Shown one piece after another: positions 50,396-57,966 of a DNA stretch of 64,000 nucleotides. Each line of letters opens with the position of its first letter. Positions within the stretch are counted from its first letter, which is position 1. The position numbers and the translations under genes were made by a program. The stretch covers positions 62,879,434 to 62,943,433 of the forward strand of contig OZ022506.1 in NCBI GenBank assembly GCA_963989385.1, read 5' to 3'. Source of the DNA: Ctena decussata (lineage: Eukaryota > Mollusca > Bivalvia > Lucinida > Lucinidae). The notes under the pieces were generated by a model. The model saw nothing but the letters and a program-made list of their open reading frames with translations, searched no databases and was not told where the DNA came from.

Positions 50396-51606
50396 ATAAC
50401 TGTTAATAATAATTGGGATTCTCGGGGCGCTGGTCTGGGGCGTAGCCCCAAGAAGCCACAGTAGTTTTTCTGATGAAAAAGCACTGGAGAGCTGATATCA
50501 CAAATGCAGGCATTAAATTCAGTTGAGAACAAAATCATCTACTTGACATGATTTTATAGACACTTTTATACTTTTCTTCTAGCGAAACAATGAAAAAGAT
50601 CTGTTTTTGGATTCTCTGGATTTATGTAACAGGATTATATCTTGAAATTCTAGTACATTCTACAGTGTTTATTCTATGAAAAAGAGAAACGAAAATGATG
50701 TTATTTTATACATCTCCCACAAGAACGCAACTCATCTATCAACATGAACAAGTAATACATGTAGTTTTTGTCAAATGACTTGATGTTACACTCTTTCCCT
50801 CAACTTAAAGACAGATCTACAAAGTAAAGCTTTCTTTTATAAGTAATCATGCAGTGAAATGAAAAAAGTATTCACAGCAGTTACAGCAGTCATCTTTACA
50901 AATCATTACAAATGCAAAAACTATTTATTCAAAAACTTCTGCATGTAATAATTAAGTCTCATTGTGAAAGAGGCATGATTTTTTTGCGAAATCCCATCAG
51001 TTCGGACGATACATGTATGTATTTTTTAAAATCAAATACGAGTCTGTTTAATCTTAATTTTATTAGATTACGTAAAAGAAAAATATTCAATAATGACAAA
51101 AATTTGGACGAAAAGAAGGGAGAACGTAAATGACTAAAAGAATTAATTATAACGATCATAACAGACTGTCTGTGTGTAAAAAGTCTCGCGGATTTTCGTG
51201 ATATAACGCGACACCTCAGCGGTACATGCATGGGCAGAAATAGTATGAAAGGGGTTTAATTGAGACGATATTGCCTTTTCTTGATCGATATACAAGTCAA
51301 ACTCGTTTTACTTTTGTGACAAATAGTAATTGACCTAGAACACACAATTGTGGGATTTTACCAGTAACTGATTTCCAGTCGTATGTACTGCTACAAATAC
51401 CAACCTTGTATTCTCTTTGCCAAGAAAAAAATGCAAATCCACGGTAGAAAATTTCGGTCAATTTCATATTTTTACTAATTTTAACAACAAAATGAAATGG
51501 TTGTAGGGGTGCTTCGGAAAGAGATTCAAGTTGTATTAGCTCCTATATGACCAATGGATGGGGTATCATGAGCTACAATCAAGATTTCATTTTTGTATGG
51601 TTTAGT
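50396..51606. other. No gene recognised
   Basis: AT-rich; a few open stretches with no splice or homology support. GGTTTAGT at 51599-51606 is the left target duplication of the next element. Confidence 0.4.
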
Positions 51607-51651
51607 ACGAAAGCCTAATAGGATCAAATTGAAAAAGAAGAAAATAAGATT

Positions 51652-51880
51652 TTCTCGTTTGTACGAGAAAATATTCTCGAAGGAACGAGAAAAAATGTCA
51701 TACAAACGAGAAATTGTCTCGTCCGAACGAGAAAAATCTCGTACAAACGAGAATATTTCTCGTACAAACGAGAAAGTAATGTCGAAAAAACGAGAAAAAC
51801 TGTCGTACAAACGAGAAATATTCTCGTCCGAACGAGAAATGTTTCTAGAAGGAACGAGAAACCTTCTCGTACGAAAATTG
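51652..51880. repeat. Left array: about 11 palindromic CTCG...CGAG units, 21 bp period
   Basis: Units of type TTCTCGTACAAACGAGAAA. Unit starts fall at 51654, 51676, 51697, 51718, 51738, 51759, 51781, 51802, 51823, 51845 and 51866, i.e. steps of 20-22 bp. Three recurrent inner sequences: GTACAAAC, GTCCGAAC and GAAGGAAC. Confidence 0.9.
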
Positions 51881-51884
51881 GAAG

Positions 51885-52395
51885 TGAATGCTTTCGAATG
51901 TAGAGCTGAATGTTGATCCCACAACTCGATATTCAAACTGTATTTGTTTCGAATGCAGATCTGAATGTCGATCCCACAGCTCGATATTGCATTGAGTATT
52001 TTGGAATGCAGAGCTGAATGTTGATCCCACAGCTGGATATTCAAACTGTATTTGTTTTGAATGAGGAGCTGAATGTCGATCTCACAGCTCTATATTGGAG
52101 TTGAATGTTTTCGAATGCAGAGCTGAATGTTGATCCCACAGCTCGATTCAAACTGTATTTGTTTCGAATGCAGAACTGAATATCGATTTCACGCTCGATA
52201 TTGGAGCTGGATATTTTCGAAGGCAGAGCTGAATCTTAATCTCACAGCTCGATATTCAGGCTGAATAAAAGAAGAGCTGAATATCGATTCCACAGCTCGA
52301 CATTCCGATATGTTGTCGAATGCAGAGCTGAATATTAATCTCACTGCTCGATATTCAGGCTAAATAAAAGTAGAGCTGAATATCGATTCCACAAA
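51885..52395 (+). repeat. Central tandem block, about 60-65 bp units in two alternating types
   Basis: Units share GAATGCAGAGCTGAATGT, CGATCCCACAGCTCGATATT. They alternate between linkers CAAACTGTATTTGTTTC and GGAGTTGAATGTTTTC, giving a higher-order period near 125 bp. Later units are shorter and diverged (GGCTGAATAAAAG). Confidence 0.85.
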
Positions 52396-52509
52396 AAATA
52401 AAAGCGCAACATATATTTTCTTCTCGAAAATTTTGTAAACAATACTTTATTGACTATTTTCTCCATTATTGTATTTGTGCTACTACTCGTTATATATAAA
52501 GCGATTATT

Positions 52510-52885
52510 TCTCTTTCTTTCGAGAAAAATTCACGTTTGTACGAGATTTTTTCTCGACCGTTCGACATTATTTTCTCGTTTGTTTGAGAAATAGTCTCGT
52601 TCCTTCGAGAAAGTTTCTCATTCCTTCGAGAAAATTTCTCGTGCGGACGAGAATATTTCTCGTTTGTACGAGAAAATTTCTCGTTTGTACGACATTATTT
52701 TCTCGTTTGTACGAGAAATATTCCCGTTAGTACGACATTTTTTCTCGTTCCTTCGAGATTATTTTCTCGTGTGTACGAGAAATATTCTCGTTTGTACGAG
52801 ATTTTTCTCGTTCGGACGAGAAAATTTCTCGTTTGTACGACATTTATTCTCGTTCCTTCGAGAATATTTTCTCTTACAAACGAGA
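52510..52885. repeat. Right array: about 18 palindromic units, 21 bp period
   Basis: Unit starts from 52575 onward fall at 52596, 52617, 52638, 52659, 52680, 52702, 52723, 52744, 52766, 52787, 52807, 52828, 52849 and 52871, i.e. 20-22 bp steps. Inner sequences GTTTGTAC, GTTCCTTC and GT(T/G)CGGAC are the reverse complements of the three left-array types. Confidence 0.9.
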
Positions 52886-53023
52886 ATTTTTTTTTTCTTT
52901 TTCAATTTGATCCTATGAGGCTTTCGTAGTTTAGTGACTTCTATTTGATAAATAATTTTCCATCCGTCATTAGTCAATATATTTTTATAAGGTCGCTATT
53001 AAAATGGAAAAAAATCGCAGTTT

Positions 53024-53262
53024 CGAGCCGCAACACAACAAAACCAACAAAGTGGTTGTGCGCCCAGCGCAGACTCAGATCAGCCTGGGCATCCCACCCA
53101 GTCTGATCAGAGTCTTCGCTGTCCGCATGGAGGTAGCTTAGACCCTTAGCTACCCTTTAAGTGCTTAGTCAAAAATCTGATTGGAATGGGCAGATGCCCA
53201 GCCTGATCCGAGTCTGTGATGGGCGCACAACCACTTTGTTGATTTTCTCGTGTCAAGGCTCA
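53024..53262. mobile_element. MITE, GAGCCGCGACAC family, abutting a splice acceptor
   Basis: Ends GAGCCGCAACACAACAAAAC and TTTTCTCGTGTCAAGGCTC. Internal arms CCAACAAAGTGG / CCACTTTGTTG, GCGCAGACTCAGATCAGCCT / GCCTGATCCGAGTCTG. Second copy at 60912-61156. It ends about 12 bp before the AG of gene 2 exon 1. Confidence 0.88.
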
Positions 53263-54639: not shown

Positions 54640-54662
54640 GTAGACTATGCGACATCTAGACT

Positions 54663-55651
54663 ATGCTGTTCAGAGAACAGCTTGATAAAATCAGGAATAA
54701 ACATAAAGGCAACAAACCACCCTCAGTTCATGTACTAGGGGACTTCAACTTCCGAAATATTGTTTGGCCTGACAGACTCAACAAATCTGGTTCAGCCTTG
54801 AGTCAGTCGGAGGGACAAAAGTTGGTAGACATTATGAATGATCATGGATTGGAGCAGTTAGTCCACTTCCCTACAAGAGAAAGAAACACATTGGATTTAA
54901 TAATGACTTCCCTTCCTACTCAATTTGTAGACATCCACTCCCCAGACAAACTCAGTGATCATGACAAGGTTTCTGGAACTTTGAAAGTAGTTATTCCCCC
55001 CATCAAGAAACCTAGGAGGAAGGTTTATCGTTATCAGAAAGGTGATTATGAATCTATGAGGGCAGAAACACTTAAATTTGCAAAAGAAAAGTACTTTAAT
55101 GGTAACTCAGACACTCGCTCGGTCCAAGAAAACTTCAATCTGCTTACTTCTTTCATTCAGGACTCAGCTGATAAGCATATTCCATCAAAAACTAGTCGCA
55201 CGGTCTCCTCGGTTCCATGGATAACACCTGAAATAAGACGTAAGATTCGCAGAAGAAATGCAACTCATGCAAAAGCTAAGAAGACTGGTAGTGCAAAAAT
55301 TAGATCTAAATTTGAAACTTTACGGAGAGAAATCAAAGCTGATATTAGGAATCAGCATGCCATCTATGTGAATAACTTGGTTGGTGATGTTAAGGCTAAT
55401 CCCAGGGACTTTTATAGGTACATCAATAGTCAGAAAAAAGACACGCAAGGTATCCCCCCTTTAAAAAAGAGGAACGGAGGTGGGGTCGCCCAATCGGATT
55501 TCGAGAAGGCGGATGAATTTAATGGTCAGTTCACGGATGTGTTCACCAAAACAGAACACAACCAGGTCCCTCTTCTGGATAGATCAGCCCCATTCATGGA
55601 AGAAATTGTTGTTACTAAGGAAGGAGTTACAAAACTTCTTAAAGGATTAAA
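54663..55651 (+). CDS. LINE endonuclease C-terminal part and linker
   Basis: Open from 54663 (first in-frame ATG; the frame itself is 5'-truncated). Shows VLGDFNFRNIVWPD (residues 24-37) and SPDKLSDHDKVSGTL (about 92-106), the catalytic GDFN and SDHD motifs of the apurinic-type LINE endonuclease that nicks the target. A basic linker follows (IRRKIRRRNATHAKAKK, YRYINSQKKDTQGIPPLKKR). The frame leads to VTKEGVTKLLKGL, where the inserted element begins; a stop is met 30 bp into the insertion. N-terminal endonuclease motifs are missing, so the protein cannot be complete. Confidence 0.85.
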
Positions 55652-56485
55652 AGTAAAAAGTATGCAAAGACCAAGAACATAAACAATCAAAATCCAAATC
55701 CAGCCCTCAAACCATAGTTGGAAACAACTAAGATTACAAATAATCAAGATACAAAGAACATATGGCCAACCGAGTGAGCAGCTTGTTCCCAAAAGGTGGC
55801 CACTCAGCAACCCAAACCGAACCAAAAATAATAATAACATACATAAGGTAAAACATCACAGAAACTCTGACACCAAAAACAGGCAACAAAGAACCACAAC
55901 AGAACTACCGCCTTGGAACGGTCAGTAATGAATTACTGGGGGGCTTAAATCGATTTTACAGGCCCAACCTCACCCTCAGTTTCTGAAGTGGTACAAAACA
56001 TTTAGTTGGTTGTTCGGTTCGCATGATAACCCTCTAACTCGTCAATGAATCATCACGGTAAACACATAAATCAAATTTCAACACCATGAAGAAGCAAAGA
56101 CGAGGACTCAACAGATACAACGGGCCGTCTGACAGGTGGAGATCCCTGTCCTGCCAAACAACCCCACTGGAAATCTGAAGCAAAAGAAGGTCACCAGTTG
56201 AGCCCCGGTGGACCAAGCAACAGACAAAAAGGCTCCGGTCCCAACCAACTAAAATATATAGCTTTAGGTCGGGGCCATCATAGAGTCTGACGACCGATCC
56301 CCCGGTGTGCAATTAAAGAGTGCAGCAAAGCTATCAACCGTGATTGGGTTAATCACTAAGCATGCAGACTGTCGCATAACACTTAAATTATAGCCAATAC
56401 GTTTGTGACGTATTATTATTTTTCGGAATTGATCAGAAAAATCAGTCCTACCCTTAATCTTTTTGAATTTGTATACTAAGTCATC
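55652..56485. mobile_element. Family-X insertion, copy 1, inside the LINE coding frame
   Basis: 834 bp flanked by TAAA (55648-55651 and 56486-56489). Removing it with one TAAA leaves the LINE frame continuous, which fixes its borders. Ends are weakly inverted (AGTATGCAAA near the left, TTTGTATACT near the right). Inside: TACCGCCTTGGAACGGTCAG and GAGTGAGCAGCTTGTTCCC, shared with 35880-36580. No protein coding recognised; superfamily unknown. Confidence 0.8.
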
Positions 56486-56487
56486 TA

Positions 56488-57966
56488 AACCCATCTAAGG
56501 CCTTAGGACCTGATGAACTTCATCCTAGAGTTCTAAAGGAGTTGGCGACAGAGTTGGGTCCGGTATTTGCCCATCTTTTTCAACAATCGATTGATAGAGG
56601 TGAAATCCCTCGTGAATGGTCTCTTGCGAACATTTGCCCACTGTTCAAGAAGGGGGACAGGTCTCTTGCCCGTAATTATCGTCCGGTATCCTTGACCTGC
56701 ATACCTTGCAAGCTGCTTGAACATATTGTGTGTTCGAATATAATGGCCCATCTTGATGAACATAAACTTTTGTCAGACAAACAACATGCATTCAGAAAAT
56801 GGCATAGCTGTGAAACTCAGTTGACTACGGTGATAGATGATTGGGCAAAAGTGTTAGACAATAAGGGTCAGGTTGACACTTTTATATTAGATTTTGAAAA
56901 GGCTTTTGATACACCCCCGCATGAACTCCTTAAAAGCAAACTATTTAGCTACGGTATAGGTGGTTCAACATTGAATTGGATAAACGCTTTCCTATGCTTT
57001 AGACAACAAAGAGTAGTAGTAAATGGTGTTATGTCAGACTGGGCCCCTGTTGTGTCTGGTGTCCCACAGGGCACCGTTCTTGGTCCCTTGTTGTTCTCCT
57101 TGTACATAAATGACATCTCTGCAGACATTGAGTCTGAAATAAGACTCTTTGCTGACGATTGTGTTTGTTACCGTGAAATAAAAGGAATAGATGATACAGT
57201 GAAACTTCAGGAAGACATTGATCGTTTAGGATGTTGGGCTAGGAAATGGGGTATAAGATTTCAACCTGTCAAATGCAACATGATGCAGCTGACAAAAAAG
57301 CACAACAAAATCCAGGCTTCTTACACCCTTGAGGGTACAGTACTGGAAAATGTTGAAAGTATCAAATACCTTGGAGTAACAATTACAAGTGATTTAAAAT
57401 GGAATACCCATATCATTAATATTTGCACTAAGGCAAACAGAACCCTAGGATTCTTAAGGAGAAATTTGTTTTCTTGTCCCCAAGAAGTGAAAGAAGTAGG
57501 CTATAAGACATTGGTGCGTCCCATCCTCGAATATGGAAGCTCGGTCTGGGATCCCTATACACAAGGCCTTCAGGAAGAGTTAGAAAAGGTGCAAAACCGT
57601 GCAGCTAGGTTTGTAACTAGGAATTACACCCGAGAGGCGGGTAGCATGACTGGCATCCTTGAGCAACTTAAGTGGGAAAGCCTCAAAAAGAGGAGGAAGG
57701 ATAACCGACTCATATTGCTATACAAAGGTCTGAAAGGTAAAGCCAGAATACCTACAGGTGACCTTGTCCCCAAAACTAGGCGTTGCAGAAATCAACATTC
57801 CATGGCATTTCAGATACCCATTGCTTGTTTAGATGCATATAAATGTAGCTTCTTTCCCCAGACCATCAGGGACTGGAACGACCTCCCTGATTCCCTGATT
57901 TCCTCTGCTGAAATGTCAGATGATTGTGTGTCAAAGTTCTCATCTTTCGTGAGAGCTAGGGACTAA
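56488..57966 (+). CDS. LINE reverse transcriptase and C-terminal domain (intact)
   Basis: 492 open codons ending TAA. RT motifs in order: NPSKALGPDELHPRVLKEL, LFKKGDRSLARNYRPVSLT, DKQHAFRKWHSCETQL, FILDFEKAFDTPPHELLKSK (domain with catalytic Asp), SGVPQGTVLGPLLFSLYIND, LFADDCVCY (57145-57171; FADD in place of YADD), and KYLGVTITSDLKWN. After RT comes the typical thumb and C-terminal text LVRPILEYGSSVWDP, VQNRAARFVTRNY, GILEQLKWESLKKRRKDNRL and FFPQTIRDWNDLPDSLISS. No stop or frameshift. It would copy its RNA at the target site if supplied with a working endonuclease part. Confidence 0.92.
   Translation, partial: NPSKALGPDELHPRVLKELATELGPVFAHLFQQSIDRGEIPREWSLANICPLFKKGDRSLARNYRPVSLTCIPCKLLEHIVCSNIMAHLDEHKLLSDKQHAFRKWHSCETQLTTVIDDWAKVLDNKGQVDTFILDFEKAFDTPPHELLKSKLFSYGIGGSTLNWINAFLCFRQQRVVVNGVMSDWAPVVSGVPQGTVLGPLLFSLYINDISADIESEIRLFADDCVCYREIKGIDDTVKLQEDIDRLGCWARKWGIRFQPVKCNMMQLTKKHNKIQASYTLEGTVLENVESIKYLGVTITSDLKWNTHIINICTKANRTLGFLRRNLFSCPQEVKEVGYKTLVRPILEYGSSVWDPYTQGLQEELEKVQNRAARFVTRNYTREAGSMTGILEQLKWESLKKRRKDNRLILLYKGLKGKARIPTGDLVPKTRRCRNQHSMAFQIPIACLDAYKCSFFPQTIRDWNDLPDSLISSAEMSDDCVSKFSSFVRARD

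Follow-up and report, generated by a model that had tools for sequence, protein, structure and literature searches.

Mobile elements with long inverted arms of 21-bp units in the bivalve Ctena decussata, probably of the IS3EU superfamily

What kind of sequence carries two facing runs of short CTCG/CGAG units spaced about two helical turns apart, and what might such runs be for? The question arises at a locus within a 64,000-nucleotide stretch of the Ctena decussata genome (hereafter the window), for which an earlier note had proposed a mobile element whose arms look like a phased protein-binding scaffold. We place the start of this element at 51606 rather than 51607 (Table 1). Its left end is written TACGAAAGCCTA, its right end in the window copy is GAGGCTTTCGTA, and the terminus given for the transposon (51606-52928, a member of what we call family A) is TACGAAAGCCT. 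The target duplication, formerly put at 7-8 bp, is actually 6 bp, GTTTAG, and the flanks do not match at lengths of 4, 5, 7, 8 or 9. Inverted termini are indeed present, but not as the 33-bp repeats that had been described, as the repeat spans the whole left arm. No second copy of the element was found within the 64-kb window.

Table 1 Parts of the window element and 21-bp arrays in bacterial sequences (a dot marks a feature without strand)
Feature	Position	Strand	Remarks
Whole element	51606..52928	.	1323 bp; ends TACG...CGTA
Left target-site duplication	51600..51605	.	GTTTAG; 6/6 identical to 52929-52934
Right target-site duplication	52929..52934	.	GTTTAG
Left terminal domain	51606..51653	+	TACGAAAGCCTAATAGGATCAAATTG plus an A-rich stretch; aligns with the ends of other copies
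Right terminal domain	52885..52928	-	Inverted copy of the left terminal domain
Left array	51654..51879	+	11 CTCG-N6-CGAG units, the last degenerate, the outermost reversed
Right array	52511..52884	-	18 units; inverted left array, 3 extra units inside and ~5 further units
Central tandem block	51877..52393	.	53-55 bp units in a 108-bp double repeat
AT-rich inner stretch	52394..52510	.	Adjoins the right array; longer inner region in L064 and L065
Bacterial 21-bp arrays	L050 2761-3012; L011 2960-3970; L047 1119-1310; L032 244-350; L012 2051-2115

Exact CTCG-N6-CGAG units occur 15 times in the element and not once in the remaining window, against ~0.3 expected per 64 kb from base composition. The previous counts of about 11 left and 18 right units held up, with the last left unit degenerate and the left unit starts 51697 and 51866 added by hand to the pattern matches; the inner stretch, given before as 6-8 bp, is 6 bp in every unit listed. 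All 27 unit-to-unit steps fall within the 20-22 bp that had been reported for nearly all of them (18 at 21, seven at 22 and two at 20 bp; mean 21.19), and the three common inner types of the left arm (TACAAA, TCCGAA and AAGGAA) do return as their complements in the right arm. Their order, however, is not mixed. Counting inwards from either end, units 1-6 of one arm line up with units 1-6 of the other (18-20 of 20 positions), and right units 9-13 are the counterparts of left units 6-10 (17-20 of 20), so that what appeared to be a mixture is a single ordered array present twice, three units longer on one side. Aligned along the full length of the left arm, the two arms agree at 246 of 265 positions, with gaps of 64, 4 and 1 bp, the first of which amounts to three units; the outer 270 bp are inverted copies at 87% by BLAST, and the outermost unit is reversed at both element ends. 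Seven of the 11 listed family-A ends show the outer five-unit order of types again, with variants. Because the left arm of another family-A copy, L064, aligns to the window left arm with a 63-bp gap, it is most likely the window left arm that has lost three units.

Long open frames extend over the arms (window 51526-52089 and 52341-52694 on the minus strand, 51572-51916 and 52588-52929 on the plus strand). Several reading frames of the 21-bp unit are free of stop codons, so the arms yield long open frames, and these are probably spurious. Translated arms gave one weak protein match, P0001, which comes from an ENA contig, has a repeat of 7 residues (21 bp), matches the best retrieved loci at 54% and seems to be an arm of this kind annotated as a protein; a protein search with the translated left arm plus terminus gave no match. 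The window element contains no recognised gene.

The repeat period of the central block is 53-55 bp (~54 bp) within a 108-bp double unit, not 60-65 bp as had been thought. Its satellite is dispersed in the genome, where it forms arrays of up to 94 units without palindrome units, and the block looks like a passenger in the element. Such arrays at L080 562-6128, L081 598-5055 and L083 540-2372 hold 35-94 units; one orientation switch lies inside three of four satellite arrays, and the fourth (L082, 18 units) has none. The translated block is similar to ten ENA proteins (P0002-P0011).

We searched the source assembly (1.66 Gb) with the element and obtained 153 listed matches, many of which are the central satellite, and 17 end matches with the left terminus; the copy counts given here are lower bounds. 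Family A is represented by few copies. Five have both ends (the window copy, L064, L065, L066 and L070), and at all five the 6-bp duplication is exact (GTTTAG, GTATAT, ATTTAC, GCTGTG and GAAAAT, respectively). None of the lengths 4, 5, 7, 8 and 9 fits these five pairs, and random 6-bp flank pairs were identical in 45 of 120,000 draws. Copies that share these ends are between 190 and 2517 bp long, the smallest, L070, having five units and an exact duplication. At several other loci one end only was recognised; scoring was restricted to convergent end pairs, and the single family-A ends at L067-L069, L071-L074 and L114 lie outside it.

The pattern TTCTCG-N6-CGAGAA-N3-TTCTCG had 77 matches in the source genome and its backward control had none; the loci L091-L093, among these matches, make up family C, and the matches that belong neither to it nor to family A point to a further family, E. 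This sister of family A is more abundant, with at least 42 ends (40 of 175 candidates scored). Its terminus is TACGAAAGCCTA, as in family A, its end is also written TACGAAAGCCTATAAGGACATTTT, and its arms reach ~50 units with nearly all steps exactly 21 bp. One copy, L139 on C1, has arms of ~50 and ~28 units (a raw count of 51 includes one flank match), and another, L116, is 7488 bp long with arms of ~40 and ~38 units. The flanks of L116, AACCTG and AGCCTG, are identical at 5/6 positions, and when joined they align with sequence inside the same element that bears the site once, which constitutes a paralogous empty site. Seven further family-E convergent pairs gave six exact duplications (GGATTG, GTTTTC, GTGGCG, GCATTG, TAAGAT and AAAACA), and in one pair on C1 no 6-bp duplication was found. 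In a crowded stretch of C17 the duplication was absent from two wide family-E pairings and from one nearer pairing. Among the 42 ends, this scoring took in 14 in the seven pairs, the left end of L116, four in the two wide C17 pairings and one in the nearer pairing. In the C17 stretch (G000 C17:15518226-15542217) family-E ends are clustered within ~24 kb and one element has inserted into another; its outer flanks, TGCACCATTC and GAATGGTGCA, are mutual reverse complements.

In total, the 13 convergent pairs of families A and E include 11 with an exact 6-bp duplication, one with a 5/6 match and one with none; TA stands at the start and end in all 13, and of the lengths 4-9 scored in every pair 6 bp alone fits. 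The ends and duplications, the absence of which from genome copies the earlier note would have counted against itself, do exist, and with these duplications and the empty site of L116 its proposal that this is a mobile element is strongly supported for families A and E. Two further families, B (L113 and L115) and D (L094), start with TACGAAAG or TACAAAAG and have units at 21-22 bp. Neither gave a clean 6-bp duplication at these three short elements (4/6 at L094, 1/6 at L113 and 4/6 at L115).

To what class do these elements belong? Long inverted repeats packed with tandem repeats are a foldback trait, and the window element has it. Families A and E in addition have the 6-bp duplications and TA..TA termini of IS3EU elements, for which Kojima and Bao give TA..TA termini and usually 6-bp target duplications (PMC10045372, in the portions available). 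Some fungal IS3EU elements have terminal repeats of >30 bp that end in TAYGG..CCRTA (PMC12730594, likewise in part), and the end here has TACGA in place of TAYGG. The arms here also differ from IS3EU (IS3EU/GingerRoot) in being built of tandem repeats, of which the accessible parts of these two papers make no mention for IS3EU. A full-length relative encoding a transposase, which the earlier note had envisaged, was not recognised: none of the 18 interior ORFs searched in L116, L139 and L140, a subset of those listed, reached the Pfam cut-off, and two weak matches fell below it. A search of the genome with PF13683 gave 146 matches, many in open frames of >1000 residues, and no partner was singled out. 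Since no transposase was found, IS3EU membership is only probable; judged by their ends and duplications, families A and E probably belong to this superfamily. The window element itself is most likely a non-autonomous foldback-type transposon moved in trans.

Foldback elements of other superfamilies share much of this layout. Tetris of Drosophila virilis is a non-autonomous foldback element with a terminal domain, a tandem array and an internal domain, and its alleles differ by one whole repeat (PMC4079207, available text). Some copies of Galileo, of the P superfamily, have this anatomy too; like the element here, Galileo has long, internally repetitive inverted repeats whose repeat number can differ between ends (PMC3573991), and tandem repeats in such foldback ends have been proposed as extra transposase sites (PMC3573991, PMC4079207; each as far as its text was available). 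The shared architecture of terminal domain, tandem repeats and internal domain could therefore point to a Mutator (MULE) or P-superfamily foldback element of the Tetris or Galileo kind (PMC4079207, same portions). However, Tetris, which its authors assign to Mutator, has ~220-bp repeats and duplications of 8-10 bp (PMC4079207), and Galileo has ~210-bp repeats, 7-bp duplications and a known transposase (PMC3573991), again according to the text available. A duplication of 6 bp thus disfavours the superfamilies of both and, with 6 bp the sole fit across the 13 pairs and with TA..TA ends, we regard this assignment as highly improbable. Inverted repeats of short tandem units are also the build of Drosophila FB and sea urchin TU elements, whose unit sequence and duplication length differ from those here. 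To our knowledge, Helitrons and Helentrons have no terminal inverted repeats and no target duplications; both are present here, and we rejected this identity. Bivalve pearl/Helentron elements do have in common with the window element a central satellite-like block within a mollusc mobile element, whereas their inverted repeats are subterminal, according to the available parts of the sources, and here long terminal inverted repeats are joined by target duplications (PMC5139131, PMC11136912). The CgiSat43 satellite of Crassostrea gigas, with a 21-bp unit and 66.7% AT (PMC8268682, available portion), is a lead for comparison that matches the arms in unit length.

We found no published description of this layout (mollusc foldback elements, 21-bp or palindromic inverted termini, IS3EU together with satellites) in a search with Repbase and most subscription literature outside its coverage. 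As to the statement that no family like it is known, the element does have kin, as Tetris and Galileo are foldback relatives in form and the ends fit IS3EU. If the ends are truly IS3EU, these elements would represent a foldback variety of a superfamily in which we saw no such form described.

The reading that we favour, to which we give slightly better than an even chance, is that of a non-autonomous foldback DNA transposon, IS3EU most likely, which depends on a transposase supplied in trans and has a DNA-binding protein on successive units of its arms. A transposase made elsewhere would cut and join at the TA ends. A DNA-binding protein, either the transposase or a host factor, would occupy successive units, and longer arms would bind more of it; by analogy with the Galileo proposal, the arms might serve as repeated docking sites. 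Slippage or unequal exchange would lengthen and shorten them, mostly in steps of whole units, and the phase would thereby be preserved.

Is there evidence that the phase matters? The claim that every palindrome lies on the same side of the DNA holds within each arm if one helical turn takes 10.55-10.6 bp (coherence 0.95-0.96), but is weaker at 10.5 bp (0.92 left, 0.85 right). The order of steps in the window copy has no extra regularity compared to permuted steps (P = 0.50 left, 0.18 right), and phasing in this copy alone is nothing beyond that of a 21-bp tandem repeat. Among copies, every one of the 111 single steps counted for family A lies within 20-22 bp (79 at 21 bp), and 147 of the 152 for family E are 21 bp, in a count that tolerates no more than one half-site mismatch per unit and leaves out gaps of 30-35 bp; odd steps of 28, 30, 39, 47 and 51 bp are also present in the copies. 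Thus the free drift of spacing that the earlier note would have read as simple satellite expansion is not seen in the family-A steps, but length changes between copies do occur that are not unit multiples (gaps of 1-6, 9, 10, 16, 29 and 52 bp) next to others that are near them (63, 42, 105, 21 and 20 bp).

Written more fully, the arm unit is CTCGT-N4-ACGAG, and family E has its core, its step and the terminus in common with family A. We also compared the unit core with the spacer. With the register taken from the period alone, uniformity was higher in the core than in the spacer for 10 of 11 arms (family A, 0.78-0.92 vs 0.70-0.78; family E, 0.85-0.98 vs 0.86-0.90), with the order reversed in the remaining arm (0.85 vs 0.86); against the inner four bases, the core was the more uniform in every one of the 11. 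Between families, the consensus units of A, B, C and E in one orientation have 10/10 core positions in common and 5-8/11 of the others (5/11 for the spacers of A and E); family D, with mixed arms, was omitted. Three of the six family comparisons reach p = 0.012 and three are not significant (0.09-0.21). Cross-family agreement in core and step is partly built in, as the family-E bait demanded two units at 21 bp, families B and D came from DNA searches including units, and units were counted by their core; the shared terminus and the array length are not built in by the family-E bait. The first three spacer bases (AAA) are common to the families as well, and thus the arm unit may be better described as a directional motif, CTCGT-N4-ACGAGAAA.

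A neutral origin accounts for these arms nearly as well as protein binding does. A 21-bp unit duplicated early could have been expanded and homogenised by slippage and unequal exchange, with the phase a by-product without function, and we put this at somewhat less than an even chance. Tandem duplication by itself maintains a period, step lengths are inherited along with the order of units, and arm size runs from a few to ~50 units, with very short-armed copies (L070 and L065) that have moved. Neutral expansion also fits the gaps off unit multiples, the partial likeness of the family spacers and the substitution rates, which among family-A copies are similar for half-sites (0.093 and 0.065 per site) and spacers (0.098), compared to 0.103 for inner bases, 0.057 for the outer 25 bp and 0.078 for the central block between the window copy and L064. 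This contrast of half-sites and spacers is a weak one, as copy pairs are not independent, and copies drifting after insertion would be expected to differ little in it either way. In contrast, the more uniform core within arms and the full agreement of core positions between families are not what neutral expansion would lead one to expect. The scaffold proposed earlier is therefore favoured by core uniformity but not by the rates or the spacers, and for phased protein-binding sites in the arms the comparison of copies gives modest, indirect support.

A stronger form of the protein-binding reading would make these families a transposon clan in which arms of a few to ~50 sites, two helical turns apart, act as a conserved cooperative scaffold that holds a transposase or host protein on one face; this seems to us rather unlikely. 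We found no description of such one-face, phased-site recognition of ends for IS3EU-like transposons in the literature searched. The natural series of arm lengths, from a few to ~50 phased units with the same terminus, makes the proposal of extra transposase sites directly testable.

The arms could instead act through secondary structure, with one long hairpin, formed as foldback DNA or as double-stranded RNA, or hairpins of single units feeding small-RNA silencing or replication-based amplification. Predicted folds are consistent with this: the two arms pair in the 1322-nt strand (a prediction without shuffled controls at that length), the left arm alone has z = -9.1, and unit 20-mers form hairpins of 5-8 bp at -3.7 to -6.7 kcal/mol. 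However, any long inverted repeat would be predicted to fold in this way, and the dyad is imperfect. Of the 26 like-oriented units of the window copy, 19 have C-G as their outermost pair and seven have G-G, and a compensating change at this pair was never seen in these units, which served as a covariation test of the dyad. The right half, CGAG, is nearly invariant across the 26, and family-A inner bases are not self-complementary; 'palindrome' is an approximate term for the family-A unit. In family E, self-complementarity is confined to a 14-bp core, where pairs are complementary in 81-96% of units except for one inner pair at 42%. We consider a role of this kind quite unlikely. A heat-shock-element-like spacing of the units was also considered and dropped.

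Outside the source genome, the unit, double-unit, terminal and central-core patterns matched 6 (no arrays), 1, 0 and 0 loci in IMG/VR, respectively. The double-unit pattern matched 48 loci in prokaryote genomes, among them a few bacterial 21-bp arrays, which we do not treat as relatives. The half-site they share with the element was selected for, as TTCTCG/CGAGAA was in the search pattern; the long period was not. These arrays of imperfect palindromes come from MAGs labelled Bacteroidales, Tannerella or Prevotellaceae (isolates Gx485_bin*), and L050 has a constant GAAGTTTTC in alternation with a near-palindrome of 12 bp that differs in sequence from unit to unit.

In the window, a short inverted-repeat element, CAACAAAGTGGTTGTGCGCCC...GGGCGCACAACCACTTTGTTG, lies directly beside the foldback element at 53045-53241, and a relative of it at L119 (~433-627) adjoins decayed family-E-like units. 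Remains of a LINE with endonuclease-like and reverse transcriptase frames are found at 54660-57966, and a MIEAP-type ORF was noted in the sequence analysis.
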